From a virus: 23,063 bases of DNA. The translations under genes were made by a program, and so were the position numbers. This document shows, piece by piece, positions 1 to 22,132 of this stretch (the stretch's first letter is position 1; the number at the start of each line of letters is the position of its first letter). Location: positions 1-23,063 of the IMG/VR virus record IMGVR_UViG_3300032316_001554, one strand, 5' to 3'. A model generated the notes under the pieces. That model made no database searches and was not told where the DNA came from. It was given only the letters and a program-made list of their open reading frames with translations.

Positions 1-3000
1 AAGCCATTTTCCGTGCCACCGGGATAAATGACCTTCGCCAACTTCCCGCTCGCGTAATACCGATACCCGATCGTCTTTGCTGCCTCGGTGTAACTGGTCA
101 CGCGATTGAGGCCGTCGTATGTCCGCGTGATAGTCCCGTTCCCGCCCTCGTTGAGCGAGAGGAGGTTTCCGTTGGCATCGTAGCCGGTGTAGTTCACCGT
201 AGTGCCGCCCGCGCCGGCATACATCGCGCTGGCTAGCCGTCCGGTGCCCGCGTTGTAGTTGAAGGTCGCTTTGTCGCCGCTCGGCTCGGTATGCGTGGCG
301 ACCCGCCCGTTCTTCGTGTGGGTCGTCGTCGTGGTCTGTCCAGTGGGCAAGACCACCGTTGTGCGCCGTCCCAGTGCATCGTAGCCGAACTCGAAGGTGG
401 CTCCCTTGCGGTCTGTAACAAACCGCAAACGCCCCGCCGCATCGTATTCGCTCGTCACCGTTCGCCCATCCGCCTCGGTCTTCACGGTGCGAGGCTTGCC
501 CCCGCCCGTGGTGTCGTAAACGAACCCCTCGTTCCGCGTTCCCGAATTCGCCCCGGGGTTCTGCGTCGAAGTCACCCGGCTGTCCCCGTCGTAGAAAAAC
601 TTCGTCGTTCGCGACGCGGGCCGCTGCGTTTCTGCGAGGTCGCCGTTGGCCTTGCGGACAAACGTAGTCGTGCGGTTGGCTGCATCCTTGGCGGTGGAAG
701 CCCAGTCTCGGCTGTCGTAGGCCGTTTCCTCGACCGTAACATTGTTGAGCTTTTTCAGCCGCACCTTGTCGGTCGGGTTGTAGGTGAGCGATTGCACCGG
801 ACGCTGCCCCGCATTGTCGGCGGGCGGGGTGATCGTGGCCACGCGCGCTTGGTTGTCGAAGGTCGCATTCGCGGTCGCTGCCACGCCGCTCGTGTCCGCC
901 GTCTCCCCGGTGCGCTGCCGCCGCTTGTTGTAAGTGAACGAGGTCATCCTCCCATTCGCATCCACCACGGAATCCAGATTGCCTTGGGCGGAGTAGTTTT
1001 GATTCAACGAGAACCCGCCCGGCAGAGTCGTGATGTCCGGCTGGCCGAGGGTGTCGTAGGTCTTGGTCGTCACCAACCCATCGCCATCGGTGATCGTGGA
1101 CACGCGACCGATGGCCGCTCCGCTCGCTGTGTATGTGTAGGTCGTCGTGGACTGCTCGGCGGTGCCCTTAGCCGCGATCACGCTTTGCGGGCGGTCCTTC
1201 GCGGCCTCCGGTCCGCTCGCGAAGTAGACATAATCCGTCTGCACGCCGTTCGGATCGATGACGAGGTCAAGACGGTTCAGGCTGTCGTAAGCCATGAGGG
1301 TGCTGCCACCGCCGCGCGGATGGTCGACGCGCGTCAGGTTGTGCGCGGCATCGTAGGTGTAGGCTGTCGTCTCGCTCGCCCCGCTTGTGCGGGTGACAAC
1401 GCGATCCTGGCCATCGTAGGTCATCGAGGTCGTATTGCCCTCCGGATCGCGTGAACCCGCCGGCCGTAACCGCTCGTCGTAGAAGTAGCGGGTGATGCCC
1501 CCCTGCGGGTTCACCTCGAAATTTTCGCGGCCCGTGTAGTAGAGGCGGAAGGCCTTATTTGTGTCCCCATGGAGGAACTGCCGCTCCACGCGCCCAAGGC
1601 TGTCCCACACATTTTGGGTAATCGTTTCGCCATCGTGATTGCGCAGGCGCACGATGCGGTGTTGCCCGGGGGTTGTGCCACCGGGATCTCCCGCCACGCT
1701 GTAGTCGAAATAGGAGACCTTGCCCTCAGGATCCGTCACGCTGGTCAAATTCCAATTCGTCGTATCGTAGCCGAAAGTGACACTGCGCGAAGGAGAGGTA
1801 GAATCCGTCACGCTGGTGATGCGCGTGCCGTTGTAGGCAAACGTATAGCGCCGACCGCCGGCGTCCTGCACGTAGTTGAGCGTATTGTTGGTGTTGTAAG
1901 CGAAAGTCATCGCCCGGCTATCGACATCCACGATGCGCGTCGCCTTGCCCGCCGTGTCGAATTCGATCGTATTGCCTAATCGCTGCTGGAGCCGGTAGGT
2001 GCCGTCGGTTGCCGTGGTCAGGATCATTGTCGATCCCGGAGGCGCCGTGAAGGAGCCGTCCGGTTGTTTGATAAATTGGAAGATGTCTTTGCCCATGCGC
2101 ACCGAGACCGCGTTGTCCTTCATCTGGTCCACAAACCATCCAACCGCCAGCGTGGCCACGCCCCACTCCTTCGGCGAGGCGTCCCTGCGGTAGAGGTCGG
2201 ATGCCGCCACGATTGCGACGAGGAACGCCGCAGCCTGCTGGGGCGACCCCATGCCGAGCGCCTCCTCGGAGGCAGTGCGCGCCACGGCACGGATGTGTAA
2301 ATTGTGCATCCACCCGAAGCCCAGATTCTGCTCGTCCCGCGCGGCCATGGTCGAGGAGTAGTTCCGCGTAAAGGCCAGTCCGCGCGGTGCGCCCTCGGTT
2401 CCAGTCGCCATGTCCTCGGCGGCAAAAACAAACGCCCCGGTGGCCATATCCACCGGATCGCCGGCATAAAGCCTGGTTGTGATCACCGGCGGCGCTGCGG
2501 ATTTCACCACAACCGACGAAGGCTTGTGCGTGGAAACTGGGTTGTAAGAAAAGCTGGTGGAGATGGTTGGCGACCGCACTGTTCCTATGGTTGTTCCATA
2601 GCCTCCGCTGTATCCCCCGCTAATGATCATGCCAGCGATGTTCGGGCTGCGAATTACCCAGCCCGAGCCGCTCCAAATGCCCTGGGAGATTGTGCCATTG
2701 GCAGGCAGGAAAAGCTGGGCCTGTCTGTTGTTGATCAGCCACTCAAAGTTGTCCCGAACCGGTCGGTCGGTCCAAGACTCGCCTTCGTCGCGGATGCCGT
2801 TGTTGTTGGCATCCGTGAATTCCCCAAGATCGGGAACCCCGTTGGTGCCGGTGTAGGCCGAGCCGGTCAGTTGCGGTTTGATCGCCGCCCAGTTCAGCGC
2901 TTTGGCCAGGAAGAGTTTCTGACCGCCCGAGCCCTTGTTCGCCTCGCGCAGGATGTTGACCGTGGAAACCGCGTCATAAGGTGTGCCGTCCGTTTTCACC

Positions 3001-4790
3001 TGCATCTGCTGGATGACTCCGTGCTCCAAGGCGCTGGCGAAAAGCGACCCAAGGTGAAAAAGATTCTCCCAGCGGCCGTCGTCCTCCACGCCGTCATCCG
3101 CGCGGTCACTGGAAAACTGCAATCCCACATCCACATAAAATCCCGCCTCCTGCGCCATGCGTCCGAAACGGTGGTGGTAAAGAGGAATAATGCGGTTCTG
3201 CGAGGCGATCAAACGGTTGGCTGTCGCGGTCTGGCTGAGCCAAGTGAGCCCCATGATGTTGAGAATTTCCGTGCGCACCTCGCGGGATTCGTCGGGCTTG
3301 TTGGCATCCTTGTAGGCTTTAAGCTTTTCCTGCCTTTTGGAGAGCAGCCGTTCCGAGGCATCGAACCCGTAGATGATCGCATACGAGCAAGCGTCCCCGC
3401 TGGAAGTCTGCTTTGAATAGTTTTTGGTCTCGGCTTGGTTCCCGACACCGCCGCCGGGGTGGGTTATGGAAATGGTGAGGTCCATCGTTGTGGCCGACCC
3501 GAGCGATCCGGTGTCCGCCAGCGTGTCGTCATCGAACCGCAACTCGGCGGAACTCCCGTTGAAGGTGAGTGTGACTTTGCGCCCCCGCAAATCAGCAGTG
3601 GGCAACTCGTAGTCCAGACCATCGGCGGCTGTGGAACGGAACCTCACCTTCGACTTGTAGGCCGCGAAAGACGCGTCATCCACCGAGTCGAAAAAGATCG
3701 GGGCAACTTGTCCGTAGAAGAACGAGGGCTGCCATGCCTCCGCCAGCGATGCGGCCGTCACCGGTATGATAGAGCGCCCTTGGACCAGATCCCGGAGGCC
3801 GACCGCGCCGAACGTCGACCGCAACGCAGCCGCGCGATCCCGGAGGTAGTTGCCCGTCGCGTTGGTGTTCATGCCAACCACCGAGTTGGTATCGGCCGCC
3901 CCGGCAGCCGCCCCAAGCAAGGCGGCACGCGAATAGCCGGAGTTGGTGGCAAGGTTGGCCTCCGCACCCTTTGCGTATCTCTTAAACGAAGGATCCATGA
4001 CGCTGTAGGTCCCGCCGCCATCGAAGGTGATTGCCACGAACACCCTGTCGAAGAGCACGTAGGAATCCGGCTCATTGGGGTCATGGGCAGTCCTTCCGCT
4101 GAAGGCGGCCGTTCCGGATCCGAGCCCATCGAGGAATATCTTTGCGAAGGTCAGCCGCTTGGCGGCTTTCTGACTTAATCCCGGATTGTAGGGCGATGGT
4201 GTGCCGAAAACTTCCTGGTGGGATTTGCCCGGGAACGGTTCATCGGCCAGTCCAAGCCAGTCCCGCAGGTCGTCGTATTTCCGCCAATAGGCCAGTCGCA
4301 CTAACTTGACCGTGGAAGAGGAGTATCCGGCGGCAACCAGCAGATCGCGCAGAAGGGCGCATTGATCGAAGTCGTTGCCCGACCCTTCCAGCAGAGTCAG
4401 TGACGCGCCTTTGACCAGCCCATGGTAGTGTTGGTAGCCGATCGTGTTGCGCACCCAATTGTAAATCCGCAGGGCCTTCGCTGTGGTCGGCTCCCCAGCC
4501 ACCGTCTGGCCTTCCCCGAGGGCCTGAGCGAGCGCTGCCACGTCGGGATCGATCGACGGCGCGGCGGACATTGCCGAGGCAGCTTTGATCGCCGAGACAG
4601 GTCCGGGAAGAATATCTGAGCCCGGACCCATCGGACCGGTTCCGATCGGCAGATCTCCTCCAGGTGCGAGCGAGATGTCCAGCGGTTCATTCTGCCAGAT
4701 CGGGTAATTCTGCGCCTGCGCGCCCGCAACCGGCAGGCCCAGCAAAACCGCCCAAAGTGCCAACCGCATGCTTTTGCCTAGAGTCTTCAT
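1..4790 (-). CDS. Giant secreted RHS/YD-repeat protein with transglutaminase-like N-terminal region (C-terminus beyond left edge)
   Basis: The frame opens at ATG 4788-4790 and stays in register to base 3, giving about 1596 codons in the window with the C-terminus missing. Residues 1-26 form a signal peptide ending AGAQAQ. Residues about 105-160 resemble the transglutaminase-like fold (IYNWVRNTIGYQ, then SGNDFDQCALLRDLL), but the position where the catalytic Cys normally sits is not Cys. Around residues 775-870 a DUF6531-like segment (GDPVDMATGAFVF, GFGWMHNL) introduces the RHS part. From about residue 930 onward YD repeats follow (TYDSLNRL, YDALGRRT, TYDGLNRV). By family knowledge such proteins form a cage-like shell that can hold a C-terminal toxin; the tip is not visible. 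The start lies 4 bases after the stop of the preceding gene, which suggests coupled translation. RHS identity is secure; toxin function is inference. Confidence 0.93.
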   Translation of the reverse strand, partial: MKTLGKSMRLALWAVLLGLPVAGAQAQNYPIWQNEPLDISLAPGGDLPIGTGPMGPGSDILPGPVSAIKAASAMSAAPSIDPDVAALAQALGEGQTVAGEPTTAKALRIYNWVRNTIGYQHYHGLVKGASLTLLEGSGNDFDQCALLRDLLVAAGYSSSTVKLVRLAYWRKYDDLRDWLGLADEPFPGKSHQEVFGTPSPYNPGLSQKAAKRLTFAKIFLDGLGSGTAAFSGRTAHDPNEPDSYVLFDRVFVAITFDGGGTYSVMDPSFKRYAKGAEANLATNSGYSRAALLGAAAGAADTNSVVGMNTNATGNYLRDRAAALRSTFGAVGLRDLVQGRSIIPVTAASLAEAWQPSFFYGQVAPIFFDSVDDASFAAYKSKVRFRSTAADGLDYELPTADLRGRKVTLTFNGSSAELRFDDDTLADTGSLGSATTMDLTISITHPGGGVGNQAETKNYSKQTSSGDACSYAIIYGFDASERLLSKRQEKLKAYKDANKPDESREVRTEILNIMGLTWLSQTATANRLIASQNRIIPLYHHRFGRMAQEAGFYVDVGLQFSSDRADDGVEDDGRWENLFHLGSLFASALEHGVIQQMQVKTDGTPYDAVSTVNILREANKGSGGQKLFLAKALNWAAIKPQLTGSAYTGTNGVPDLGEFTDANNNGIRDEGESWTDRPVRDNFEWLINNRQAQLFLPANGTISQGIWSGSGWVIRSPNIAGMIISGGYSGGYGTTIGTVRSPTISTSFSYNPVSTHKPSSVVVKSAAPPVITTRLYAGDPVDMATGAFVFAAEDMATGTEGAPRGLAFTRNYSSTMAARDEQNLGFGWMHNLHIRAVARTASEEALGMGSPQQAAAFLVAIVAASDLYRRDASPKEWGVATLAVGWFVDQMKDNAVSVRMGKDIFQFIKQPDGSFTAPPGSTMILTTATDGTYRLQQRLGNTIEFDTAGKATRIVDVDSRAMTFAYNTNNTLNYVQDAGGRRYTFAYNGTRITSVTDSTSPSRSVTFGYDTTNWNLTSVTDPEGKVSYFDYSVAGDPGGTTPGQHRIVRLRNHDGETITQNVWDSLGRVERQFLHGDTNKAFRLYYTGRENFEVNPQGGITRYFYDERLRPAGSRDPEGNTTSMTYDGQDRVVTRTSGASETTAYTYDAAHNLTRVDHPRGGGSTLMAYDSLNRLDLVIDPNGVQTDYVYFASGPEAAKDRPQSVIAAKGTAEQSTTTYTYTASGAAIGRVSTITDGDGLVTTKTYDTLGQPDITTLPGGFSLNQNYSAQGNLDSVVDANGRMTSFTYNKRRQRTGETADTSGVAATANATFDNQARVATITPPADNAGQRPVQSLTYNPTDKVRLKKLNNVTVEETAYDSRDWASTAKDAANRTTTFVRKANGDLAETQRPASRTTKFFYDGDSRVTSTQNPGANSGTRNEGFVYDTTGGGKPRTVKTEADGRTVTSEYDAAGRLRFVTDRKGATFEFGYDALGRRTTVVLPTGQTTTTTHTKNGRVATHTEPSGDKATFNYNAGTGRLASAMYAGAGGTTVNYTGYDANGNLLSLNEGGNGTITRTYDGLNRVTSYTEAAKTIGYRYYASGKLAKVIYPGGTENG

Positions 4791-4794
4791 GGCC

Positions 4795-5505
4795 TCAAGG
4801 GTTCCCGTCCCCCGTGGTGCTTTGCACATTGCCGCCGTCGTCATAGCCAAACCCTTCCGCCGCGCCGGCACCTGTTTGCGCTGCGCCGAGCTGGCCAACC
4901 AAATCGTATTGGAAATTCAACCGCACCGTGCCGTCGTCCACCCCGTCGCCATCCGTGTCAGCCTTGGTCGGATCAGTCGCCGCCTCCCATTCCTCCAGGT
5001 TGGTCAAACCATCGCCATCGGGATCGGCGGAGCTGGTCTGCGCGCTGGTCCCGAAATACCGGATTTCCCAATCATCGGGCAACCCGTCGCCGTCGGTATC
5101 GGCAGCGGAGAAAGGGTCGGTGCCCAGCTGCAATTCTTCGAGATTACCGATGCCATCTCCATCAAAGTCCGCCAACTCGGCATTATTGGTTGGACTGTCG
5201 CTATACCTCAGCCGCAGAAAAAACCTGTCGCCTGTCGAGGTAAAACCCCATTCCTTTACTGATTCGTCACCAGACTCGACGATCGGCACATACAGCCATG
5301 GCTGCATCAAATTCTCGGAGTGCTGGATGAAATAGGTGCGTCCAGACTTACCAAACCATTTGAAGCGAAAAATTCCATTCTCACTGTCATGCTCGAGCAA
5401 GCTGCCCTCATTCAAGTCAGATGCCGTCTGCGCCAGCATCTGTGTATCCGGCATAAGCAACATGCACCAAAGAAGCAGAGGAAATAATCGGCTGTGAGTC
5501 TTCAT
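4795..5505 (-). CDS. Secreted thrombospondin type 3 (DxDGDG) repeat protein
   Basis: 236 aa. Residues 1-25 are a signal peptide (charged start, Leu/Met-rich core, MLAQTA). The middle segment (FKWFGKSGRTYFIQHSENL, then FFLRLRYSD) matches the beta-rich module that commonly precedes calcium-binding repeats in Verrucomicrobia. Several acidic loops of the form DFDGDG, DTDGDG and DPDGDG follow, each with an NLEE or GTDP companion, as in thrombospondin type 3 calcium-binding repeats. The last 40 residues change character to NFQYDLVGQL and GFGYDDGGNV, which look like a short stretch of YD repeat. The start ATG overlaps the upstream stop (ATGA, 5502-5505), and its own stop is 4 bases before the giant RHS gene, so the three genes are probably one transcript. 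It may be a cell-surface partner of the RHS protein; that role is inference. Confidence 0.85.
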   Translation of the reverse strand: MKTHSRLFPLLLWCMLLMPDTQMLAQTASDLNEGSLLEHDSENGIFRFKWFGKSGRTYFIQHSENLMQPWLYVPIVESGDESVKEWGFTSTGDRFFLRLRYSDSPTNNAELADFDGDGIGNLEELQLGTDPFSAADTDGDGLPDDWEIRYFGTSAQTSSADPDGDGLTNLEEWEAATDPTKADTDGDGVDDGTVRLNFQYDLVGQLGAAQTGAGAAEGFGYDDGGNVQSTTGDGNP

Positions 5506-6798: not shown

Positions 6799-7446
6799 AT
6801 GGCCTCTTCAGCATTTAGAGAGTTCCGATACAATGTTCTTGATGCAAAAAGACTACACCAAGTCCACAGGATAGTTTCTAAAGGCAAGCCAGGAAGGAAA
6901 GGTCTTGGACACCTCACGCGGAGCGGAGTCGTGATGCTTTGTGCAGCTTGGGAGCGATATCACGAGTCTGTCATCGTGGAGGCTGTTACTTATTTTACTT
7001 CTACAATTGAGCAGCCCGAGACTCTACCCCTGTCGGTCCGCAAACACCTCAGCAAATTCGCAAAAGAACACATTCACGATCTGAAACCGATGGAGCTGGC
7101 AGGTGATGGTTGGAAGCAGTTGCTTGTCTGGCTCGCCGCTGATGAGGCGGGTAAGCTTAATACGCCGAAAAGCACAAATCTTAGACTTTTATACGAGCGG
7201 TTTTTAGGACTTAATGATGTAACAGATTTTTGGCCAGAAGGGGGTGAGCCAATTGATGTCTTCGTAAAAGAAAGAGGTGACATTGCCCACAACGGCAGAC
7301 AGAGTCCATACATCCCTAACGCGGTTTTGAGCAATTACATCCAGATGGTCGAGGACGTTGTGGCCGCGCATGACAATAGGCTTTGCGACTTTCTGAAGCA
7401 CGCCAGCAAAGCTACTTGTCAGCCATGGCGTCGCACCGCCGAGTAG
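6799..7446 (+). CDS. HEPN-domain protein, RiboL-PSP type (putative RNase or conflict protein)
   Basis: 215 aa. The N-terminal helices (LTRSGVVMLCAAWERYHESVIVEAV, residues about 39-63) match the conserved start of the RiboL-PSP HEPN family, including the W-E-x-Y core. The HEPN signature R-x4-H is present as R159-GDIA-H164, in the helix KERGDIAHNGR. HEPN proteins of this kind are often metal-independent RNases in toxin-antitoxin or anti-phage systems; that function follows from the family and is not shown here. The gene follows a 98-aa gene on the same strand and runs into an RHS-derived scrap on the other strand. Codon use is AT-rich compared with the phage module. A distant relative of the same family lies at 18228-18794. 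The ATG has no clear Shine-Dalgarno sequence. Confidence 0.75.
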   Translation: MASSAFREFRYNVLDAKRLHQVHRIVSKGKPGRKGLGHLTRSGVVMLCAAWERYHESVIVEAVTYFTSTIEQPETLPLSVRKHLSKFAKEHIHDLKPMELAGDGWKQLLVWLAADEAGKLNTPKSTNLRLLYERFLGLNDVTDFWPEGGEPIDVFVKERGDIAHNGRQSPYIPNAVLSNYIQMVEDVVAAHDNRLCDFLKHASKATCQPWRRTAE

Positions 7447-8406: not shown

Positions 8407-8653
8407 CGCACGCGCGGAGGCCTCCATTTCCGAGGAGCGTCAAATTTTTTCAGGCAAAAGATCGGGAAGTCAAGGGAAGCCACGCAAAGCGTGGGGAAAC
8501 GTGGGGAAAAATCGCGACGCTGTCGCGCGGCCCGAAAAAAACCGGGTGTAGGTCTCATGCGTGCGCCGAACCAGCGGCGTCATACCCCGCCAAGGCAACA
8601 AGCCGCGATTGCCGCACGGGGGCAACAAACCGCACGCGGCGCCGAACCCCGAT
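8407..8653. other. Repeat-rich leader before the replication genes
   Basis: About 250 bases with no convincing gene. They contain GGAGGCCTCC (8415-8424), a T-run at 8445-8450, a hairpin CCACGC-AAA-GCGTGG (8480-8494), a tandem 10-base repeat GTGGGGAAAC/GTGGGGAAAA (8491-8510), a hairpin CGCGAC-GCT-GTCGCG (8513-8527) and a 27-base-period repeat GGCAACAAGCCGC/GGCAACAAACCGC (8594 and 8621). An open frame from ATG 8561 runs in register into the ATPase gene but would add only low-complexity residues (GNKPRLPHG-type repeats). The stretch could be a leader RNA, a protein-binding region or a replication origin. Confidence 0.4.
8480..8527. repeat. Two hairpins enclosing a tandem GTGGGGAAA(A/C) repeat
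   Basis: Two perfect six-base-stem hairpins with three-base loops (8480-8494 and 8513-8527) enclose two directly adjacent copies of a GTGGGGAAA(A/C) decamer. Iteron-like repeats next to hairpins are common at origins, but two copies are few. Confidence 0.45.
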
Positions 8654-9601
8654 ATGAATAATGCCAATATCCCGCTGTCGCGCGGCAAGATCGCGCGGCC
8701 GCAAAAAGCCGTGATCTACGGCCCCGAGGGCGTGGGCAAGTCCACGCTCGCCAGCCAACTCCCCTCGCCCGTCTTCCTCGACACCGAGGGCGGAACCCAC
8801 CACCTCGACGTGGTGCGCTTTCCCGATGCGCGCACGTGGGAGGATGTCACCGTCGCCGCCGCGCAACTCGCCCGGGGTGGCCACGAATTCAAGAGCTTCG
8901 TCGTCGACACGGCCGACTGGCTCGAGAAGCGCCTAGCCGAGCACCTCTGCCGCAAGGCCAACAAGGAATCCATCGAGGACTTCGGCTACGGGAAGGGCTA
9001 CGTGCTCGTGGCCGAGGAATTCGCGAAGTTCTTGGCCTCGCTCGATGCGCTCCTACGTGGCGGCATGCACGTCGTCTTTCTCGCGCACTCCACGGTTCGC
9101 AAGTTTGAGTCGCCTGATCAGGTCGGCAGCTACGACCGCTACGAACTCAAGCTCTCCAAGCAGGTGGCTCCGCTCCTCAAGGAGTGGGCCGACTTGATCC
9201 TCTTCACAAACTACGTGACCAAGGTGGCCGAGAGCGATTCCGGCCGCCGTCGCGGCATCGGCGGGCGCGAGCGCGTCATCATGACCACGCACTGCGCGGC
9301 CTACGACGCCAAGAACCGCCACGGTCTCGAGGAAAAGCTCCCCTTCTCCTACGACGCGATCGCTGCGGTGTTCGCCTCCAACTTGGCGCCTGCGTCGCGT
9401 CCGAAATCCCAAGGCGAGCGTCTGGCCGAAATCCTCGGTGACCGCGTCAACGACGGGCGCGAGTTCCTGATCGACCGCGGCCAACTGACCAAGGACGGAT
9501 CGCTCAACGATGTGGACGCCGACTACGCCGCGCGCATCTTCGCCGATCCCGACAAGTTCCTGACCGCCGTGGAGAGCTTCAACTCGGGGGCCGCTCAGTG
9601 A
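8654..9601 (+). CDS. Phage P-loop ATPase (AAA_24 / Sak4-like recombination ATPase)
   Basis: 315 aa from ATG 8654. The start was chosen because family members begin about 20 residues before the P-loop; the frame is also open to ATG 8561. The Walker A motif GPEGVGKST follows KAVIYG, FLDTEGG comes next, and SFVVDTADWLEK fits Walker B. Such single-domain RecA-like ATPases are common in phage early operons next to nucleases and ssDNA-binding proteins, and some (Sak4) promote single-strand annealing. That role is inferred from family and context. The C-terminal part (LAEILGDRVNDGREFLIDRGQL) is helical. The stop overlaps the next start as GTGA, indicating translational coupling to the nuclease gene. 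Strong GC bias at third positions supports coding. Confidence 0.8.
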   Translation: MNNANIPLSRGKIARPQKAVIYGPEGVGKSTLASQLPSPVFLDTEGGTHHLDVVRFPDARTWEDVTVAAAQLARGGHEFKSFVVDTADWLEKRLAEHLCRKANKESIEDFGYGKGYVLVAEEFAKFLASLDALLRGGMHVVFLAHSTVRKFESPDQVGSYDRYELKLSKQVAPLLKEWADLILFTNYVTKVAESDSGRRRGIGGRERVIMTTHCAAYDAKNRHGLEEKLPFSYDAIAAVFASNLAPASRPKSQGERLAEILGDRVNDGREFLIDRGQLTKDGSLNDVDADYAARIFADPDKFLTAVESFNSGAAQ

Positions 9602-10623: not shown

Positions 10624-11016
10624 ATGCCAAGTTACAAAGCAAGCGAACCGTCCGCCGCTCCCGAGGCCGTCAAGCCCGGCGAGTACCACTGCGAAATCAT
10701 CAACGCCGAGGAGGGCAAGTCCCAGAGCGGCGGCAACCCGATCATCTCTCTCAAGCTGCGACTCGAAAACGAGGCCGTCCTCTACGACCGCCTCGTCTTC
10801 ACGCCCTCGGCGTTCTGGAAAATCGACAGCTTCCGCGCCGCCATCGGGCAGAAGGTGATCCCCGACGAGGAAGTGAACATCGAGGCCGACGAACTCGTCG
10901 GCAAGACCGCGCGGATCCGCGTCGTCAACGAAACCTACGAGGGGCGCCAGCGCAGCAAAGTGGCCGCCTGGCTCATGCCCGCCAAGCCGGAGAAGCGCGA
11001 TGGACTCCCCTTCTAG
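10624..11016 (+). CDS. DUF669-like phage protein, probable ssDNA-binding protein
   Basis: 130 aa. The pattern VKPGEYHCEIINAEEGKSQSGGNPIISLKLRL, then FWKIDSFRAAIG, then VGKTARIRVVNETYEGRQRSKVAAWL resembles the DUF669 / OB-fold-like proteins that replace SSB in phage operons. The C-terminus ends GLPF after a charged stretch, reminiscent of SSB-type tails ending in D-x-PF. The gene follows the nuclease by six bases and overlaps the helicase start by 17 bases, so it belongs to the same transcript. ssDNA binding is inferred from family resemblance and operon position; no direct motif proves it. Confidence 0.65.
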   Translation: MPSYKASEPSAAPEAVKPGEYHCEIINAEEGKSQSGGNPIISLKLRLENEAVLYDRLVFTPSAFWKIDSFRAAIGQKVIPDEEVNIEADELVGKTARIRVVNETYEGRQRSKVAAWLMPAKPEKRDGLPF

Positions 11017-13564
11017 CTCCCTGCGGGGCTACCAGCTGGCGGCGGCCGACTCGATCATGTCGGGCTTCGGCGAATTCCGCCGCCAGCTCCTGGTGGCGGC
11101 CACCGGCTGTCATCGTGCCGGGCACCCGATCCTCATGGCCGATGGCACAATCAAGTCCGTCGAAGATGTGGCGGTCGGCGACAGCGTGATGGGCCCCGAC
11201 AGCCGACCCCGCAACGTGGTCGCACTGCACCGCGGCCGCGATGAAATGTTCAGTATCACTCCTTCCAAAGGCGAAGCCTTCGTGGTCAACGCCGGTCACA
11301 TACTGCACCTGGTCAGGACATCAACGGGCAGACCAAGCGAGGACAACAAAATCCGGACCATGGATATCTCGGTGCGCGATTACCTCGCACAAAACAAAAC
11401 GTTCCGGCATGTGCACAAACTCCAGCGCGTGCCCATCGAGTTCGCCCAGCCGCTAAAGCGGCCGTGGCACATTGATCCTTACATCTTGGGAGTAGTCCTT
11501 GGCGACGGGTGTCTGCACTGCGGCAACGTTGCCGTGACCACTCCGGACAAGGAAATCGTGGCTGCACTCAGTGTCTACGCCAGATCAATCGAATCGGGTC
11601 TGAGGCACGCGGAACTCAAAAACAACAAAGCCTCGACATACTTTTTCAAGGGACTTCCGGGAACCTACGGCAAGGAATTCCTTCTCTACTGCCTGCGAAA
11701 GGAAGGCCTCGCCGTCCGTGGCGAACAAAAGTTTGTCCCGCATCATTACAAGACGGCTGACCGGGCATCCCGCCGACAACTGCTCGCCGGCCTCCTCGAT
11801 ACCGACGGCTATTGCAGCGGCGGCGGATATGAGTTCGTCAACAAGTCGCCGAAACTGGCCCAGGACGTGGTTTTCTTGGCCAGAAGCCTTGGGTTGGCGG
11901 CTTACCAATCGCAAAAGTTGGTCAAGGGGCGGGTCTATTACCGCATCAGCATTTCCGGCGACTGCTCACGCCTTCCGTTGCGCATCGATCGCAAGAGGGC
12001 TCCTGAAAGGCTGCAGATCAAAGACCCTCTAGTCGCCGGATTCAGCGTTACGCCAGAGGGGCCGGGCGAATTCTTCGGATTCTCACTCGACGCCGATCAC
12101 CTCTACGTGGACGGAAACTTCACCGTTCATCACAACAGCGGAAAGACCCAAATCTTCTCCGAAGTTGTTCGCAGGTTGCAGCCCGAGCGCTCGCTCATCC
12201 TCTGCCACCGCGAGGAGCTGATTGATCAGGCCGCACGGCGGCTTGCCTCTTTCGGCATCGCGGCCGAGGTCGAGATGGCCGACCGCAAGGCATCGCTCGA
12301 TGCTCCCGCAGTGGTCGGCAGCGTGCAGACGCTCATGCGCGACAACCGCCTCAAGCGCTGGCCGCGCGGCCATTTCGGATTGGTCGTGGCCGACGAGGCC
12401 CATCATGCCACCAGCGACTCCTGGCAAAAGGTGCTGTGGTATTTCGACACGAGGACGCTGGGCGCCAGCGCCACCCCGGAGCGGTCCGACAAGCGCGAAC
12501 TCGGAAAGTATTTCGAGAACATCGCCTACGAGGTGGGCTTGCTCGACCTGGTCAAGCAGGGCTGGCTCTCCCCGATCCGCGTCCGCACGATTCCTCTCGG
12601 TCTCGATCTGCGCGGTGCGCGCACCGTGGCCGGCGACTACAACGCCGAGGACCTGGGCGAAATCATCGAGCCGCAACTCGGCAAAATCGTCGAGGTGCTG
12701 GCCAAGGATTACCGCCACCGCAAGACGATCGTCTTCCTGCCGCTGGTCAGCCTCTCGCAGCTTTTCGCCCGCATGTGCAGGGCGGCCGGGTTGCCCTCCT
12801 GGCATGTGGACGGCACGACCAAGGACCGTGCTGAAATATTGTCGGAGTTTTCGTCAGCACGCACCGGCGTCATGTCCAACGCCATGCTCCTGACCGAGGG
12901 CTATGACGAGCCCTCCATCGACTGCGTCGTCTGTCTGCGCCCGACCAAAATTCGCAGCCTCTACTGCCAGATCGTCGGCCGCGGCACACGTGTTTACCCA
13001 AACAAGGATCACCTGCTGCTCCTGGATTTCCTTTGGCTCACCAACGACCACTCGCTCATCAGGCCCGCGCACTTGGTGGCCAAAGACGAGAAGGAGGCCG
13101 ATGGCGTCGCGCGCATGCTCGCCGAGCACGAGGATTTGGAGCGTGCTGTCGAAGACGCCGCCGAGGCGCGCGCTCGCAGTCTGTGCGAACGACTCGAACT
13201 CAACCGCACGCGCCCGCCGCGCTATTTCGACCCGTTGGAATTCGCCGTGTCGCTCGGAGATGTGGAACTCGCCGAGTTCGAGCCAACCATGCCGTGGCAC
13301 AGCGACAGCGTCACCATCAAGCAGATCAAGATGCTCGGCAGATACGGCATCGACCACCGCAATGTCGCATCCAAGGGGCATGCGGCAGCCATTCTTGACC
13401 GGATTTTCTCCAGATCCCGCCTGCAGCTCGCCACCCCCAAGCAGCTTCTGTGGTTGCGCAAACTGGGACACCCGAAGCCGGAACTGGCCACCTTCCAAGA
13501 GGCCAAGCAGTTCTTGGACGAGAAGTTTGGCAAACGTTCGCCCGCTACCGCCGTCGCAGCATGA
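11000..13564 (+). CDS. Phage SF2 DEAH-type DNA helicase, interrupted by an intein
   Basis: 854-aa precursor; after splicing about 511 aa remain. The Q-like motif LRGYQ lies near residue 8. The Walker A motif ATG-SGKT is split: ATG ends at residue 36 and SGKT resumes at 380. Motif II is DEAH (465-468), motif III GASATPE (488-494), and motif VI QIVGRGTR (657-664), all as in UvsW/SSL2-type superfamily 2 helicases. The C-terminal ~150 residues are helical, and KQLLWLRKLGHPKPELATFQEAKQFLDE resembles a small accessory domain. Because the insertion separates the two halves of the P-loop, ATPase activity should require protein splicing. A GGAG before ATG 11000 supports the start. The stop overlaps the primase start (ATGA). 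Confidence 0.9.
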   Translation: MDSPSSSLRGYQLAAADSIMSGFGEFRRQLLVAATGCHRAGHPILMADGTIKSVEDVAVGDSVMGPDSRPRNVVALHRGRDEMFSITPSKGEAFVVNAGHILHLVRTSTGRPSEDNKIRTMDISVRDYLAQNKTFRHVHKLQRVPIEFAQPLKRPWHIDPYILGVVLGDGCLHCGNVAVTTPDKEIVAALSVYARSIESGLRHAELKNNKASTYFFKGLPGTYGKEFLLYCLRKEGLAVRGEQKFVPHHYKTADRASRRQLLAGLLDTDGYCSGGGYEFVNKSPKLAQDVVFLARSLGLAAYQSQKLVKGRVYYRISISGDCSRLPLRIDRKRAPERLQIKDPLVAGFSVTPEGPGEFFGFSLDADHLYVDGNFTVHHNSGKTQIFSEVVRRLQPERSLILCHREELIDQAARRLASFGIAAEVEMADRKASLDAPAVVGSVQTLMRDNRLKRWPRGHFGLVVADEAHHATSDSWQKVLWYFDTRTLGASATPERSDKRELGKYFENIAYEVGLLDLVKQGWLSPIRVRTIPLGLDLRGARTVAGDYNAEDLGEIIEPQLGKIVEVLAKDYRHRKTIVFLPLVSLSQLFARMCRAAGLPSWHVDGTTKDRAEILSEFSSARTGVMSNAMLLTEGYDEPSIDCVVCLRPTKIRSLYCQIVGRGTRVYPNKDHLLLLDFLWLTNDHSLIRPAHLVAKDEKEADGVARMLAEHEDLERAVEDAAEARARSLCERLELNRTRPPRYFDPLEFAVSLGDVELAEFEPTMPWHSDSVTIKQIKMLGRYGIDHRNVASKGHAAAILDRIFSRSRLQLATPKQLLWLRKLGHPKPELATFQEAKQFLDEKFGKRSPATAVAA
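11108..12136 (+). mobile_element. Intein with LAGLIDADG homing endonuclease in the helicase P-loop
   Basis: This covers residues 37-379 (343 aa) of the helicase precursor. It begins with Cys37 in a standard block A (CHRAGHPILMADGTIKSVED-x-VGD) and ends FGFSLDADHLYVDGNFTVHHN, followed by Ser380, giving the expected Cys...His-Asn/Ser splice residues. Block B is VNAGHIL, keeping the His but not the usual Thr. Two LAGLIDADG helices, YILGVVLGDGC (D169) and LLAGLLDTDGYC (D269), mark a homing endonuclease with both acidic residues intact. Removing the insert restores a normal ATG-SGKT Walker A. The inserted DNA looks AT-richer than the flanking helicase, in keeping with later arrival. Homing activity is inferred. 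Confidence 0.93.
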
Positions 13565-15555
13565 AGTATCGCGCCACCAGCGGCGGCCGTCTTCCGTGCC
13601 GCACCCGCGAGTATCTCGAACGCGGCGCCCCCGAAGGCTCGCGCAACCGCGAGCTTTTCGAGGCCGCCTGTCAGTTCCGCGACGCCATGATCGAGGCGGC
13701 CGAGGCCGAGCAGGCGCTCATCGCCCGCGCCCTGGCCGATGGCCTGAGCGAACACGAGGCCCGTCACACCGTGCACAGCGCTTACTCCGGCGCCGTGCGC
13801 TCGCCCGTCACAGGCGCGGCACCAAGCGGCTCCAACGGATCCAACGGCAAAAACGGCGACCACCGCGACAATCACGAATCCCTCCCCGAGCTTCCGCCGC
13901 CCATCGACCACGGATGGCGCACGCTCCTTGAAGCCTGCTTCATGCCCGACGAGTTCGTCGCCATTGCCGTGGCCGGCGAGGGCAAGGACGGAGCGCCCGT
14001 GCCCAAGCGCGGCAAGACACGCACCGCGGCCCAGTGGATCCGCCACATCGAGGCCAAGGGCGGCATCGAGGAGGTCTTCCCCGCCAAGCTCGGCCTCTAC
14101 GTGCGCATCAACCCGATGCGCGATGGCGGCGCGCGAAACAAGGACGTGGCCGCCTTCCGCCATGTGCTCGTCGAATTCGACTGCGATGCCGCGGGTCAAC
14201 CGATTCCCAAGGAGAAGCAACTGGCCGCCATTGTCACTAGCGGCCTTCCGGTCTCCGCCTTGATCGATTCAGGCAACAAGAGCCTGCACGCCTGGATCCG
14301 GGTCGACGCGCCCGACGAGGCCCAATACCGCCTGAGAGTCGATGCCGTTTACGAGAAGTTCAAGCACCTCAACCTCGACCGCCAGAACCGCAACCCATCG
14401 CGCCTCTCCCGCTGTCCCGACGGCTTCCGCCAGATCGGCTCCGAACTGCGACGTCAGCGCCTCTTGGCCACCGGGCTCGGCGCATCCTCGTGGATCGAGT
14501 GGGAGGCCCGCCAGATCGACGACGAACTCGAGCCGATGCCGGTGTCGTCGCTGTCGGTCTACGACATATCCAACGACCCGAATTCCGTGCTCGGCAACCG
14601 CTGGCTTTGCCGGGGCGGATCGCTCGTCATCGTCGGCCAGTCCGGCATCGGCAAGTCCTCGCTCTGCATGCAGCTCATGATCCTGTGGGCGCTCGGCCGC
14701 GAGGCCTTCGGCATCGCCCCCACCCGCGGAAAGCCCCTAAAGTCGCTACTAATCCAAGCCGAGAACGACATCGGCGATCTGGCCGAGATGTATCAGGGCG
14801 TGCGCCAAGGCATGGGTCTCACGCCCGAGGAGGAACGACTGCTCGATTCCCGCATCGTCATCTACCGCAACACCACGCACACCGGTCCCGGCTTCGTGCA
14901 GATGACATCGAAGCTCATCGACCGCCACAAGCCCGACATCGTCTGGGTCGATCCCCTGCTCAACTTCATCGGAGATGACATCAGCGACCAGAAGGTGATC
15001 TCCGAGTTCTGCTGCAATCAGCTCAACGCCATCTCCCACCGCACCGGCGTCATCTGGGCGCTTCTGCACCACACCGGCAAGCCGTCAAAGGATCCCAAGG
15101 CCGGATCACATTGGACCGCCTCGGACTTGGCCTATAGCGGTCTCGGCAGCTCGGCCCTCACCAACTGGGCGCGCGAGATGGCCGTCATCCTTCGCGTGCC
15201 GATGCCCGAGGGCGCACCCCCAACCTTCCAGTTCTCTATGACCAAGCGCCGCAAGCGCGCCGGTTTTCGGGACATGGAGGAGAACCCCACCGATACCATC
15301 TTTGTCCGCCACTCCTCGGGCCCCGGCATCTGCTGGGAGCAGTGCGCGCAGCCGCCGAAACCATCGAAGGGCGCGGCCTCCTACTCCACGGGAAGAGTGG
15401 GACGCCCAAGCAACTTCGATGAGGCCAAATTCCGCGAGGTGCTGGCCGAGTTCGGCGGCTCTTTGACGCGCCTCAACGAAAAGGACGTGGCTGCCAGATT
15501 GGATGCCGGAATTCGCACGATCTGGCGCTGGTGGAATCGCCTCAACTTCAACTGA
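13561..15555 (+). CDS. Bifunctional primase-helicase (AEP-like primase plus RecA/DnaB-like ATPase)
   Basis: 664 aa from ATG 13561, which overlaps the helicase stop. The first ~100 residues are helical with a Ser/Gly/Asn linker (GSNGSNGKNG). Residues about 200-300 resemble the archaeo-eukaryotic primase fold as in RepB-like primases: VLVEFD (E205, D207), SGNKSLHAW (S237, H243) and the basic segment NPSRLSRCPDG. Residues about 355-560 form a RepA-like ATPase with Walker A GQSGIGKSS (359-367) and Walker B DIVWVD (D464). The last 40 residues (LTRLNEKDVAARLDAGIRTIWRWWNRL) look like a helix-turn-helix. Such proteins prime and unwind phage or plasmid DNA. The fold assignment of the ATPase is firm, that of the primase moderate. 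Confidence 0.8.
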   Translation: MKYRATSGGRLPCRTREYLERGAPEGSRNRELFEAACQFRDAMIEAAEAEQALIARALADGLSEHEARHTVHSAYSGAVRSPVTGAAPSGSNGSNGKNGDHRDNHESLPELPPPIDHGWRTLLEACFMPDEFVAIAVAGEGKDGAPVPKRGKTRTAAQWIRHIEAKGGIEEVFPAKLGLYVRINPMRDGGARNKDVAAFRHVLVEFDCDAAGQPIPKEKQLAAIVTSGLPVSALIDSGNKSLHAWIRVDAPDEAQYRLRVDAVYEKFKHLNLDRQNRNPSRLSRCPDGFRQIGSELRRQRLLATGLGASSWIEWEARQIDDELEPMPVSSLSVYDISNDPNSVLGNRWLCRGGSLVIVGQSGIGKSSLCMQLMILWALGREAFGIAPTRGKPLKSLLIQAENDIGDLAEMYQGVRQGMGLTPEEERLLDSRIVIYRNTTHTGPGFVQMTSKLIDRHKPDIVWVDPLLNFIGDDISDQKVISEFCCNQLNAISHRTGVIWALLHHTGKPSKDPKAGSHWTASDLAYSGLGSSALTNWAREMAVILRVPMPEGAPPTFQFSMTKRRKRAGFRDMEENPTDTIFVRHSSGPGICWEQCAQPPKPSKGAASYSTGRVGRPSNFDEAKFREVLAEFGGSLTRLNEKDVAARLDAGIRTIWRWWNRLNFN

Positions 15556-16421
15556 CAACTCCCGTGCTGCAAAAACTGCCAAATACTGCTGCCAATTCCG
15601 GGAATGCCGCGCCCTCTGCCAATGCTGCCACAAATACACCACTCCGCCCCCCTAAAGGGGGCGGGTGTATTGTGGCAGTTGGCAGCAAGGGCAAGGCGCG
15701 CGCGAAGACCGGAGCAAAAGCCAAAAACTCAAAGGCACGCGACTCGCGTAGCATTGCCGTAAGTCTCACCAATGCGGGGTCAGACCCCCGAGGCCAAAAG
15801 CCCCGCCGTCGCGCGCAAAAGCCCCTCTCGCGGGCCGATGACTCCGCCGAGGGTCATGACAGCCGAGCGTCCGAATACACGAGAAATTACGATGCGTGGA
15901 TTGCGGGCCTAAACGAGTCCGACTTGGCCCGCGCCGTCGCCCTCGGCGTCGACAAGCCAATGCCCGCCGACTACCACGCCCACGGGATCGGTCTCGACGC
16001 GGACTTGGCCGAGTCCGACGAACTTTCCTACTCGCCTGACATGGCGGCTATCCTCGACCGAGAGGAAGCGCAGGATCCGCACCCCGACCTCCAAGCCGCC
16101 ATGAGTGACGTGCTCTGGGACGTGATTCGGCGCCTGGTCGGCGAACTCCTCGACACTCCAAACAGATCCCTCACCGCCGAGTGTCTCGCTGCCGTCTCCG
16201 GCATGTCCTACACCGGCGATTCCCTCTCCGCCATCGCGCGGCGCCACGGCGTCACGCGCGCAGCCGTCAGCAAACGCTGCATCGAACTGACCCGCAAACT
16301 CCAACTCCTGCCATCCAGAACCATGCGCTCGTTGACAGCGCGCCATTCATACCGCCATGCCCAACACATTATCCGCGACCTCTACGAACCAAAGTCCCGC
16401 CCCGATGATCATCGACCGTAA
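15531..16421 (+). CDS. HTH protein, sigma-region-4-like (phage regulator?), start uncertain
   Basis: The maximal open frame is 296 aa from GTG 15531, overlapping the primase end by 25 bases. Its first ~45 codons run through a large hairpin and look non-coding, so GTG 15672 (249 aa) is a serious alternative: it follows GGGGGCGGG by about six bases. Residues about 50-105 are basic and low-complexity (KGKARAKTGAKAKNSKARDS). From about residue 110 a structured part begins (SEYTRNYDAWIAGLNESDLARAV). The C-terminus carries DSLSAIARRHGVTRAAVSKRCIELTRKLQL, a clear helix-turn-helix of the sigma-70 region 4 or Sigma-like phage regulator type. It probably controls transcription of the module; its target is unknown. 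Confidence 0.65.
   Translation: MESPQLQLTTPVLQKLPNTAANSGNAAPSANAATNTPLRPPKGGGCIVAVGSKGKARAKTGAKAKNSKARDSRSIAVSLTNAGSDPRGQKPRRRAQKPLSRADDSAEGHDSRASEYTRNYDAWIAGLNESDLARAVALGVDKPMPADYHAHGIGLDADLAESDELSYSPDMAAILDREEAQDPHPDLQAAMSDVLWDVIRRLVGELLDTPNRSLTAECLAAVSGMSYTGDSLSAIARRHGVTRAAVSKRCIELTRKLQLLPSRTMRSLTARHSYRHAQHIIRDLYEPKSRPDDHRP
15616..15685. repeat. Large imperfect hairpin at the start of the HTH regulator gene
   Basis: The left arm (15616-15652) and right arm (15657-15685) pair almost throughout: CTGCCAA/TTGGCAG, TGCCACAAATACACC/GGTGTATTGTGGCA with one bulged A, then CGCCCCC/GGGGGCG around a short loop containing TAAA. The three-base ACT bulge and small mismatches keep it imperfect. There is no T-run, so it is not a standard terminator. 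The candidate start GTG 15672 and its G-rich upstream stretch lie inside the right arm. Confidence 0.7.
15776..15788. repeat. GGGGTC-A-GACCCC palindrome
   Basis: A perfect six-base inverted repeat with a single central base, inside the low-complexity part of the HTH regulator frame. This motif resembles a REP-type palindrome seen in many bacterial genomes near RAYT-like transposases; only one copy was noticed here. Confidence 0.4.
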
Positions 16422-17064
16422 GGTGGTGGCCACTCCCCTTGGCCTCGAGTTCCGCGAGGACATCGACTACGCCGAGTGGCAGGCGCTTGCCGGACACATC
16501 GCCACCTCGCTTCGGTGCATGGCCTTCGCCATCGGCGACTGGCTCGTCTACGGGGAGAAAAAGTTCGATAGCCGCAAACGTCAGGGTCGCGTCGACCAAA
16601 GCCGATACGAGTTGGCCGTTCGCGCCACGGGCATCGACTACGCCCACTTGCGCAACTACGCCTACGTCAGCCGGCGCGTTCCCCTGTCACTCAGAAATGA
16701 CAGGCTCTCCTGGGACCATCACCGCGCCGTGGCCAAACTGCCGCCCGAGCACCAGGGCAAGTGGCTCGATCTAGCCTGCCAACCCGGCGACTACGTTTCC
16801 TCACGCCGCCTGCGCGCGTCGATCAACGCCGACCGCCTGGTCTCGGTCGAGGAGCTGGTCACCCCGCCCGCCGACCAGGCGATCCTCACCCACATCCCGC
16901 CCATCAACCGCCTCACCCTCTGGTGGCGCGAAACCGGTGGCCGCGACTGGCTGCGCAGCAGATCAAAAGCCCAACTGCGCAACATGATCGTGGATTTCCG
17001 CGAGGTGATCGACATCGTCAAAGCTCTTCAATCCGAATTCCAACTACGCCCCGACGACCAATGA
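16405..17064 (+). CDS. Conserved-looking phage/plasmid protein of unknown function
   Basis: 219 aa from ATG 16405; the frame is also open to ATG 16357, which would overlap the preceding gene by 65 bases instead of 17. The body (YAEWQALAGHIATSLRCMAFAIGDWLVYGEKKF, then TGIDYAHLRNYAYVSRRVPLSLRNDRLSWDHHRAVAKL) matches a pattern seen in actinobacterial and phage proteins, where a G-D-W-L-x-Y-G-E segment is followed by a Tyr-rich HTH-like helix. That suggests DNA binding in a ParB- or KorB-like manner, but I cannot name the family. The C-terminus (SRSKAQLRNMIVDFREVIDIVKALQSEF) is a long helix. The stop overlaps the next start by ATGA. It is part of the phage early transcript. Confidence 0.65.
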   Translation: MIIDRKVVATPLGLEFREDIDYAEWQALAGHIATSLRCMAFAIGDWLVYGEKKFDSRKRQGRVDQSRYELAVRATGIDYAHLRNYAYVSRRVPLSLRNDRLSWDHHRAVAKLPPEHQGKWLDLACQPGDYVSSRRLRASINADRLVSVEELVTPPADQAILTHIPPINRLTLWWRETGGRDWLRSRSKAQLRNMIVDFREVIDIVKALQSEFQLRPDDQ

Positions 17065-18227: not shown

Positions 18228-18794
18228 TCACCATCCTGTGGTGATCGAATATACGGTGGATAAATGAATCGACAATCCTTTGTCAGTCCTCTGACCGAGC
18301 TTTCTAAAAAATCCGGGCAAATGTCTAGTGTATGCCTTATGGATGATCGGTCGAGGCGTAGTGCCATGTGCGGTCTGGTGTCGAAACTGAATCGCTTCTT
18401 CTAATCTTCTCGTAGCATCCTGAGGAGCGGTCCGAGGCCACGACCAATATGTCGTGATGTCCACTAAGCCGATGGCATCGCGCATAAGATCTTTTGAATG
18501 CTGCGTGTTCGGATTATTAAAGCGGCCTATGGCGCTGCGAACCGTCGCATTCCACGCCAGCCACACACCGAGCGGTGGATCAGGCGGCTTAAGGCGATCA
18601 AGCACTTCTTTCATAACTTCTTCGAGATAGGCCTCCCACGCCGACACACACATAACTACTACGGCACGATTCAATGCCCCGAGACCGTATTGCCGGCCGC
18701 GACTTCCGGTGCTCAGTCGCCTATGTGCCGCCTCAATTTCGGCAGCGTCGGCGAGCACAGCAGCAAGAGTCTGAGTGTAGGCGTTCGATGGCAT
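18228..18794 (-). CDS. HEPN-domain protein, RiboL-PSP type (second copy)
   Basis: 188 aa. The N-terminal helices LNRAVVVMCVSAWEAYLEEVMKEVLDRL (residues 41-68) share the hydrophobic, W-E-x-Y pattern of the HEPN protein at 6799-7446. The catalytic-type R-x4-H motif is present as R138-HQTA-H143 in IQFRHQTAHG. The region between (VWLAWNATVRSAIGRF, DLMRDAIGLVDITTYW) fits the rest of the RiboL-PSP HEPN fold. Family members are often RNases of toxin or anti-phage systems; that role is inferred. It is the leftmost gene of the minus-strand run and has no small partner gene directly beside it. TTAGC lies eight bases before its ATG. Confidence 0.75.
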   Translation of the reverse strand: MPSNAYTQTLAAVLADAAEIEAAHRRLSTGSRGRQYGLGALNRAVVVMCVSAWEAYLEEVMKEVLDRLKPPDPPLGVWLAWNATVRSAIGRFNNPNTQHSKDLMRDAIGLVDITTYWSWPRTAPQDATRRLEEAIQFRHQTAHGTTPRPIIHKAYTRHLPGFFRKLGQRTDKGLSIHLSTVYSITTGW

Positions 18795-19979: not shown

Positions 19980-20480
19980 TTATAGTTCGTGAACTCCAAG
20001 ATCAGCCACATACTCGCGTCCTTTAGGCGTGATGAAGAGGTTGTCGGGTGATACCTGCATACCAAGCATGCTCGCCGAACCATTGGGGTTCTTCGCGATA
20101 CCCAAAAGTCCTGATTCAAGTGCTCGCTTTAGGAGGATATTGTTCGCGGGAGGCCACTGGATTGCGGCATTCGCAGGCGCTCCTGCCAACTCGAACAAAA
20201 TATCCATCTCCAACTGAGAATATTTATCATGCATGAACCGCAAATTGACCTTGTAGAGACGAAGAGCCTTACGATCAATCTCCCCTTTGTCGGCGCGCCG
20301 ATGGCAGTTCGGACAGAGAGCGATGAGGTTGTCATACTCGTGCGCCTGACACTGTGCCCATGGGATAATGTGGTGAACATCGATCTCAATGTATCGACAA
20401 GTGGGGATCGCGCACCGATGCCCCGCCTCGACGAGGACGCGGCGGCGGAGGTCGGCAGGTATTGGCGGACGGCTTTCCAT
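19980..20480 (-). CDS. HNH endonuclease
   Basis: 166 aa. The HNH beta-beta-alpha metal site is complete: structural cysteine pairs C23-x4-C28 and C56-x2-C59, the His pair at 36-37 in IDVHHIIPW, N51 (DNLIALC) and H60. The N-terminus PPIPADLRRRVLVEAGHRCAIPTC is the standard lead-in of stand-alone HNH proteins. The C-terminal half (ILFELAGAPANAAIQWPPANNILLKRALESGLLG, then GREYVADLGV) resembles a winged-helix or small recognition domain. Stand-alone HNH nucleases occur in phage genomes, defence islands and as toxin tips; the surrounding genes favour a defence role, by inference. The ATG at 20478-20480 has no strong Shine-Dalgarno sequence. Confidence 0.85.
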   Translation of the reverse strand: MESRPPIPADLRRRVLVEAGHRCAIPTCRYIEIDVHHIIPWAQCQAHEYDNLIALCPNCHRRADKGEIDRKALRLYKVNLRFMHDKYSQLEMDILFELAGAPANAAIQWPPANNILLKRALESGLLGIAKNPNGSASMLGMQVSPDNLFITPKGREYVADLGVHEL

Positions 20481-20612: not shown

Positions 20613-21305
20613 TTAGCCATTCGAATTGTCAAGGGCACAAACCTTCAGCAAGCAGTATCCGAAATCGGTGAACGCAATGAAGGCGCTTTTGTTCATTCGT
20701 GAGAGTGCGTCAGATCCCTCATCACAGATGCCAAGACGCTTGATGTTCTCGAAACAGAGCCGCGCTTCCTCTGCTGAAATCTGAAAGATTCCCGGAACTG
20801 ATTCGAGCTTGTATCCGAGTTGCCTGTATGGAGGCGAATGATGCTTGATCCCTTCAACCTGTTCCCCGGTTGAAACCGCTTTTTCCTTTTGGCGGATTGC
20901 CCCATAAAGCCCCTGTAAAATCTTGGCGTCTGTCCCTGACAGCTGATCAAGCACTCGCGAAAAGCTAGGGTGCGTTGACTTCGCTGTGTTGGGATCAACT
21001 GTCGACGCGAGTAGGCCAGCGAAGAGCTCTGTCAAATTGGGATCACTGGTATTTCCGCCAGCTTCAATCAATGGCACCACTGCCTCTGGCAGGACACTTC
21101 CAGCAATTTTCGATGCATCAACCCCTCTGGCTTCTAGGAATATCCTAGCTTTCTCAACCATCGTGACTTGGTTCTTGAAGCGCCACAATGAGACCCTGTC
21201 TCTCAGTAAAAGTCCAAACTCACTGAGGGGTGCCAATAGAATTTGGTCCAAGTAGCGCCGTGCCGTCTTAGCGGCCTCTTCAATTGCTTTGTCTTCTATT
21301 GGCAT
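20613..21305 (-). CDS. Abi-alpha-like protein (DUF4393)
   Basis: 230 aa. The order of features matches DUF4393/Abi-alpha: a helix with LLAPLSEFGLLLRDRVSLWRFKNQVTMVEKARIFLEARGVD, then SVLPEAVVPLIEAGGNTSDPNLTELFAGLLASTVDPN, then HPSFSRVLDQLSGTDAKILQGL. The C-terminus is a winged-helix-like segment (ENIKRLGICDEGSD, then AFIAFTDFGYCLLKVC) that often closes this family. Members are linked to abortive infection, but their biochemical action is not established. No signal peptide or membrane segment is evident. Its start overlaps the end of an RHS-derived frame by ten bases. CTAGC lies 11 bases before the ATG, as before the Q-x-K gene. Family match is good; function is inferred. Confidence 0.8.
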   Translation of the reverse strand: MPIEDKAIEEAAKTARRYLDQILLAPLSEFGLLLRDRVSLWRFKNQVTMVEKARIFLEARGVDASKIAGSVLPEAVVPLIEAGGNTSDPNLTELFAGLLASTVDPNTAKSTHPSFSRVLDQLSGTDAKILQGLYGAIRQKEKAVSTGEQVEGIKHHSPPYRQLGYKLESVPGIFQISAEEARLCFENIKRLGICDEGSDALSRMNKSAFIAFTDFGYCLLKVCALDNSNG

Positions 21306-21697
21306 AATGTTTTTTGGCTAGACCTTATGGCTGCGGTGCAATTGCGGGCAAGAAGCATGGCCTTGAAAAGAGTTGGGTTGCTGTCCGCATCGTAGGTGTA
21401 GGCCACGGTCTTGGCTCCAGTCAGCCCGCTGATCGTGATGCTTTCGCGCAACATCTGATTGGCTGCGTCGTAACTGAACGCCGAGGCTGCCACGGAGTTA
21501 CTGAGGGAGAGCATTCTCCCAGCAGCATCGTAGGTCTTGGTGACGTCAGGCGTGCTGTCGCTCCAGTCGCAGAACGTGTCACGGTTGCGGTTGTCGATGG
21601 TGCAGCTCATCGTGACCCCCGCACGCGTGCGGTATTGCGTCATGTTCGAGTTGCCATCGTAGGTCCATGTTTCATACCCGCGACGACGTCTGACCAT
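21296..21697 (-). pseudogene. Orphan RHS mid-core fragment
   Basis: A 133-codon open frame on the minus strand is almost wholly RHS repeat: WTYDGNSNMTQYRT, KTYDAAGRMLSLSNS, FSYDAANQMLRES, YTYDADSNPTLF. It lacks signal peptide, N-terminal domains, the DHLGS end and a tip. The last ~20 codons (AMLLARNCTAAIRSSQKTLCQ) do not resemble RHS and run to the Abi-alpha-like gene start. The right boundary lies inside the end of the immunity-candidate gene, whose last residues are read from the same DNA in another frame. It is most simply a broken piece of a former RHS gene. Confidence 0.75.
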
Positions 21698-22127: not shown

Positions 22128-22132
22128 TTGGA

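Follow-up and report, generated by a model that had tools for sequence, protein, structure and literature searches.

Inteins are enriched in P-loops. In phage terminases they occupy the K/T position and a site close to it (PMC5050341; a slash marks the insertion point here and below), and P-loop sites have been described in DnaB (PMC6195587), archaeal VMA (PMC8966425) and CDC21 (PMC6801210). The mycobacteriophage inteins TerL1-a and TerL1-b (PMC5050341) resemble the intein presented here in that they, too, lie in Walker A of a phage ATPase, where they use two nearby sites. However, their host is a terminase, the sites lie one residue apart and the intein sequences are distant. The closest solved relatives of the present intein are PI-SceI and the Prp8 inteins. 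PI-SceI, the yeast VMA1 intein, aligns with it over the whole fold and at both endonuclease acids, but its 454 aa include an additional stretch that separates the splicing part from the endonuclease. Moreover, its host is a V-ATPase, interrupted at the VMA-a site rather than at a P-loop (PMC8966425), whereas our intein occupies the P-loop of a helicase.

The helicase inteins of Listonella phage phiHSIC (ORF42), Escherichia phage PJ16_077 and plasmid pSU2 belong to the same family as the present one (41-47% identity). They share the insertion point (TG/C...HN/[SC]GK) and the combination of HINT and LAGLIDADG domains, but their exteins are only about 23-26% identical to ours, and the pSU2 intein, unlike ours, has lost most of the first half of its endonuclease. 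The helicase inteins of Salmonella phage SETP3 (annotated as intein-containing) and Klebsiella phage JD001 (annotated as a putative helicase) are also members of this family (41-44% identity), but are inserted three residues later (GxGK/C...HN/T). A paper on exactly this family was not found in the literature searched, which lay mostly outside subscription journals.

The interrupted helicase and its insert

The stretch of DNA analysed here (‘the window’) comprises the 23,063 bases of a virus record from IMG/VR. It encodes an 854-aa protein without an internal stop, as judged from the ORF list and the translation, which matches a PHROG DNA helicase (E 1e-71). The hallmarks of an SF2 helicase are present: a Walker A motif in two halves (ATG/SGKT), a DEAH-type motif II (DEAHH) and, C-terminal to the insert, the Pfam domains ResIII (2e-18) and Helicase_C (3e-9). 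The insert corresponds exactly to precursor residues 37-379 (nt 11108-12136), with the junctions ...LVAATG/CHRAGHPILM... and ...FTVHHN/SGKTQIF, and its removal would leave a predicted spliced helicase of 854-343 = 511 aa.

Table 1. Features of the interrupted helicase gene and its neighbours in the window.
Feature	Coordinates	Strand	Details	Evidence
Sak4-like AAA_24 ATPase	8561..9601	+		Pfam, PHROG
DUF2800/phage exonuclease	9598..10617	+		Pfam, PHROG
DUF669/SSB-like protein	10624..11016	+		Pfam, PHROG
Helicase precursor	11000..13564	+	Intein-interrupted SF2 (ResIII/RadD-like), 854 aa	ORF, Pfam, PHROG
N-extein	11000..11107	+	36 aa up to ...LVAATG, the first half of Walker A	Translation, empty-site homologues
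Intein	11108..12136	+	343 aa, C1 to H342-N343	Pfam, profile, model, homologues
HINT domain, N-terminal part	11108..11440	+	Blocks A and B, residues 1-111, edge approximate	Hom_end_hint, PI-SceI/Prp8 alignments, model
Block B	11288..11299	+	N61-A-G-H64 (NxxH instead of TxxH)	Family alignment
LAGLIDADG homing endonuclease region	11441..12019	+	Residues 112-304, edges approximate	LAGLIDADG_3/Hom_end, PI-SceI and I-DmoI structure matches
LAGLIDADG motif 1	11486..11509	+	LGVVLGDG, D133 ~ PI-SceI D218	Family and profile alignment
LAGLIDADG motif 2	11783..11809	+	LAGLLDTDG, D233 ~ PI-SceI D326	Family and profile alignment
HINT domain, C-terminal part	12020..12136	+	Blocks F and G, ends FTVHHN	Homologue, family and profile alignments
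C-extein	12137..13561	+	475 aa from SGKT (second half of Walker A) onwards, with Ser as the +1 nucleophile	Empty-site homologues
Phage DNA primase/helicase	13450..15555	+	AAA_25, PriCT_1	Pfam, PHROG

A preliminary description of this DNA, made from the letters alone, had proposed that an intact intein with a homing endonuclease splits the Walker A motif of a phage helicase between ATG and SGKT. The split is seen directly in the translation, and the coordinates, residue numbers and 511-aa product given at the time all match the translation and the junctions. The splice residues that were said to be kept (Cys37, His378-Asn379 and Ser380 of the precursor) are all present, as are both LAGLIDADG acids. 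Within the insert, Pfam recognised Hom_end_hint (E 7e-18), LAGLIDADG_3 (5e-9) and Hom_end (9e-7). The intein has Cys1 (precursor residue 37) at its N-terminal splice junction and ends in H342-N343 followed by a Ser at +1, which places it in class 1. The presence of Cys1 distinguishes it from class 3 inteins such as Msm DnaBi1, which have no nucleophile at position 1 and carry an internal WCT triplet. Each of its two LAGLIDADG helices ends in a catalytic acid (D133 and D233). Apart from an Asn in block B, which is treated below, no odd residue was noticed.

This assignment is supported by comparison with solved structures. A profile of 39 sequences matched PI-SceI over both the splicing and the endonuclease parts, with the acids aligned (E 1e-40). 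An AlphaFold2 model for which the same alignment served as input (pLDDT 94.4, pTM 0.92) resembled PI-SceI over its full length (Z 32.2, rmsd 3.5, 333 residues aligned), the Prp8 inteins in its splicing domain (Z 22.6, rmsd 1.4, 140 residues aligned) and I-DmoI in its endonuclease part (Z about 14.6). Because the profile match, the model and these three structure matches agree, the insert is predicted to fold into a HINT splicing domain, within which a LAGLIDADG endonuclease with two motifs is nested. Taken with the empty sites described below, the profile and the structural evidence exclude a chance pattern. We consider it highly probable that a full-length intein of class 1, containing a LAGLIDADG endonuclease, lies between Gly and Ser of Walker A in an SF2 helicase of a phage-type replication cluster, and that it is self-splicing and homing.

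By analogy with class-1 chemistry, the helicase would be made as an inactive 854-aa precursor, in which Cys1 would form the N-terminal thioester with the help of Asn61 and His64 of block B. The ester would then pass to Ser+1, Asn343 would cyclise, aided by His342, and ligation of the exteins would produce the 511-aa helicase with its P-loop restored to ATGSGKT. Since a RadA P-loop intein disrupts ATPase function, according to work cited in PMC6195587, the unspliced precursor should, by the same token, not hydrolyse ATP. The excised intein, acting as an endonuclease, would cut intein-free alleles at the P-loop codons, and repair of the cut allele would copy the intein in. Such homing into empty alleles is suggested by the intact endonuclease acids.

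Empty sites, decay and probable horizontal movement

An IMG/VR scan with the C-terminal part of the helicase yielded 66 relatives (L002-L067). Three of these (L034, L047 and L058) start downstream of the P-loop and are uninformative, which leaves 63 that can be read at the insertion site. With a single exception, these close viral helicases are intein-free at the site (62 of 63): TGxGKT is uninterrupted in 61 of the 63, and L061 has a degenerate but uninterrupted sequence. The helicases closest to that of the window, with up to 60% identity, have no intein. The preliminary description had called for a search for the same helicase without the insert, and had set against its own proposal the case in which all homologues carry the segment as a normal domain; it is the former that was found. 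Because 62 of the 63 readable homologues are without it, the segment is not a normal helicase domain. The notion that it is a non-splicing HINT/endonuclease domain, kept as a stable part of the helicase, is hardly credible, as such a domain would destroy Walker A, every splice residue is kept in the segment, and nearly all readable homologues lack it.

The one readable relative with an intein, at the identical point, is L040 (IMGVR 3300029268_002252). Its intein (3167-4000) has 278 aa and its endonuclease is decayed, with both catalytic acids and much of the first half gone. The two helicases are 58% identical and the two inteins 46%. The helicase tree places L040 inside the empty-site relatives and the full intein tree puts its intein on a long branch, while a tree of the HINT parts pairs it with the window intein with weak support (91/73).

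Several lines of evidence bear on the origin of the window intein. In comparison with the named phages and the one plasmid, identity is 39-47% for the intein but only 19-28% for the helicase around it. The GC3 of the intein is 0.703, against a minimum of 0.808 across 483 equal-length in-frame windows of the neighbouring genes, and the low GC3 extends over both the splicing and the endonuclease parts. The identity contrast, the empty sites, the placement of L040 and the GC3 point to acquisition of the intein by transfer, although undated, and would all fit horizontal homing. As far as can be judged from sequence, the intact acids, the GC3 offset and the patchy distribution are compatible with recent activity. 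The nearest relatives of the window intein reach 51% identity at most, and no near-identical pair of empty and filled helicases was present among the relatives found.

It is possible, but rather unlikely, that the window intein still splices while its endonuclease is dead or drifting, and that it has come to be passed on vertically, together with the helicase. L040, with the same helicase family and site, has lost both acids and part of the domain, and its weak pairing with the window intein in the HINT-only tree is what shared descent would give. Moreover, no near-identical intein was found in another host. However, the window copy keeps both acids in a complete, confidently modelled two-motif domain, its GC3 is unlike that of the neighbouring genes, and simple vertical inheritance would require repeated loss, as the L040 extein is nested among empty-site relatives. 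An intein that splices and homes thus remains our preferred reading.

For such homing the residue at +1 is of importance. In the G/xGK[TS] register this residue is the variable x of GxGKT, which is Ala or Gly in 53 of 61 empty relatives. Therefore, a codon for Ser, Thr or Cys must either be there already or arrive with the invading intein, as is expected if the flanking codons are co-converted. With L040 as a stage of decay and dozens of intein-free relatives, this helicase family is usable as a natural series of the homing cycle, comprising gain, decay and loss. A separate observation concerns positions 1-380 of L047 (IMGVR 3300044640_002289), where the C-terminal end of an intein (...VFNLEVEEHHNYFVEGILVHN) lies in motif II (../CHHV) of the same helicase family. 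An ORF for a DUF559/REase_MTES_1575-type nuclease stops immediately ahead of it, in another frame. The arrangement looks like either a frameshift or a gene that was fractured and has a split intein together with an endonuclease of its own.

Block B and a possible P-loop specialisation of the family

Close relatives of the intein itself were reached in these collections only with a profile of 12 sequences: single-sequence scans gave none, neither in IMG/VR nor, for the whole protein, in the genome collection. With the profile, relatives were found in 508 stretches of viral contigs and in at least 475 stretches of genomes, and the best 80 from each source were retrieved. Among 160 cleanly delimited members, C1, H64, H342 and N343 are invariant (160/160), where for C1 this is built in, since members were retained only if they start with C, and the Cys of the window intein itself is the test. 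D133 is Asp in 158 members and Glu in one, and D233 is present in 159.

Block B of the window intein reads VVNAGHIL, with Asn at the position of the Thr (B:7) and His64 at B:10; Thr and His at these positions are assisting residues (PMC4031507). The preliminary description had noted the replacement of the Thr, correctly, and had suggested that it could slow or condition splicing. The latter does not hold, because B:7 is Asn in 149 of the 160 members (Ser in 8 and Thr in 3), and the His at B:10 is found in all of them. In addition, the 77 viral-contig members obtained from the profile scan of viral contigs, with patterns that avoid block B and the endonuclease motifs, all have the Asn and both endonuclease acids (77/77 each). 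Asn is thus the normal block B residue of this family. The loss of the Thr was rejected as a mark of conditional splicing, and it is no ground for expecting the window copy to splice slowly or conditionally. Conditional P-loop inteins are known from mycobacterial DnaB (PMC6195587) and archaeal RadA (PMC5790916), and one could imagine that the P-loop site and the non-consensus block B make the present intein a switch of the helicase. We regard this as improbable, since the Asn is the family norm and nothing particular to the window copy suggests regulation.

The insertion points of the 160 members fall into two P-loop registers three residues apart, with 98 at G/xGK[TS], 61 at GK/T and one in a degenerate P-loop. 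The family (L068-L078 and L079-L238) is found in hosts as different as SF2 helicases, DnaB, a protein of Cdc6/Orc type, a Clp-type AAA+ protein and a T2SSE secretion ATPase. Only two changes of register are needed in the intein tree, compared to 29.7 expected with shuffled labels, and the window intein falls inside a group of ten at G/xGK[TS] (SH-aLRT 97). It is thus an intact-looking, endonuclease-bearing addition to a very common P-loop intein family of phages and bacteria. Whether it is part of a lineage whose homing is specialised on the P-loop itself, moving among unrelated NTPases in two segregating registers, seems to us an evenly balanced matter. The pattern suggests ectopic homing between non-homologous P-loops via shared coding sequence, beyond allelic homing. 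Specialisation of this kind bears on why inteins accumulate in ATP-binding sites, be it that regulation is selected for or that the endonuclease recognises a conserved string of codons.

Genomic context

The helicase lies in a phage-type replication cluster with a Sak4-like ATPase, an exonuclease, an SSB-like protein and a primase. The true start of the primase/helicase is uncertain, because its ORF overlaps the end of the helicase gene. Among the scanned ORFs, which represent part of the ORFs of the window, there was no virion gene, nor any capsid, terminase or integrase gene that would identify the record as a phage beyond doubt. The left end (1-4799, minus strand) holds the open-ended gene of a large RHS/YD-repeat protein, whose start resembles a signal peptide, and the right end (21296-23053, minus strand) holds RHS fragments. 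These are probably host or island-border sequence and, as they occur at both ends, a provirus or an island may be represented here, with host DNA on either side.

Two HEPN_RiboL-PSP genes (6799-7446, plus strand, and 18228-18794, minus strand, the latter matching only part of the model) flank the replication cluster and may encode toxins or serve in defence. Where the phage-like cluster ends, 16357-17064 (plus strand) encodes a protein resembling LmbU-family transcriptional regulators, although its score of 94.8 bits (E 5e-27) stays under the curated cut-off of 125. Lastly, a gene for a protein with an abortive-infection alpha (Abi_alpha) domain (20613-21305, minus strand; E 1e-20) is adjoined by a gene with an HNH endonuclease domain (19980-20480, minus strand).
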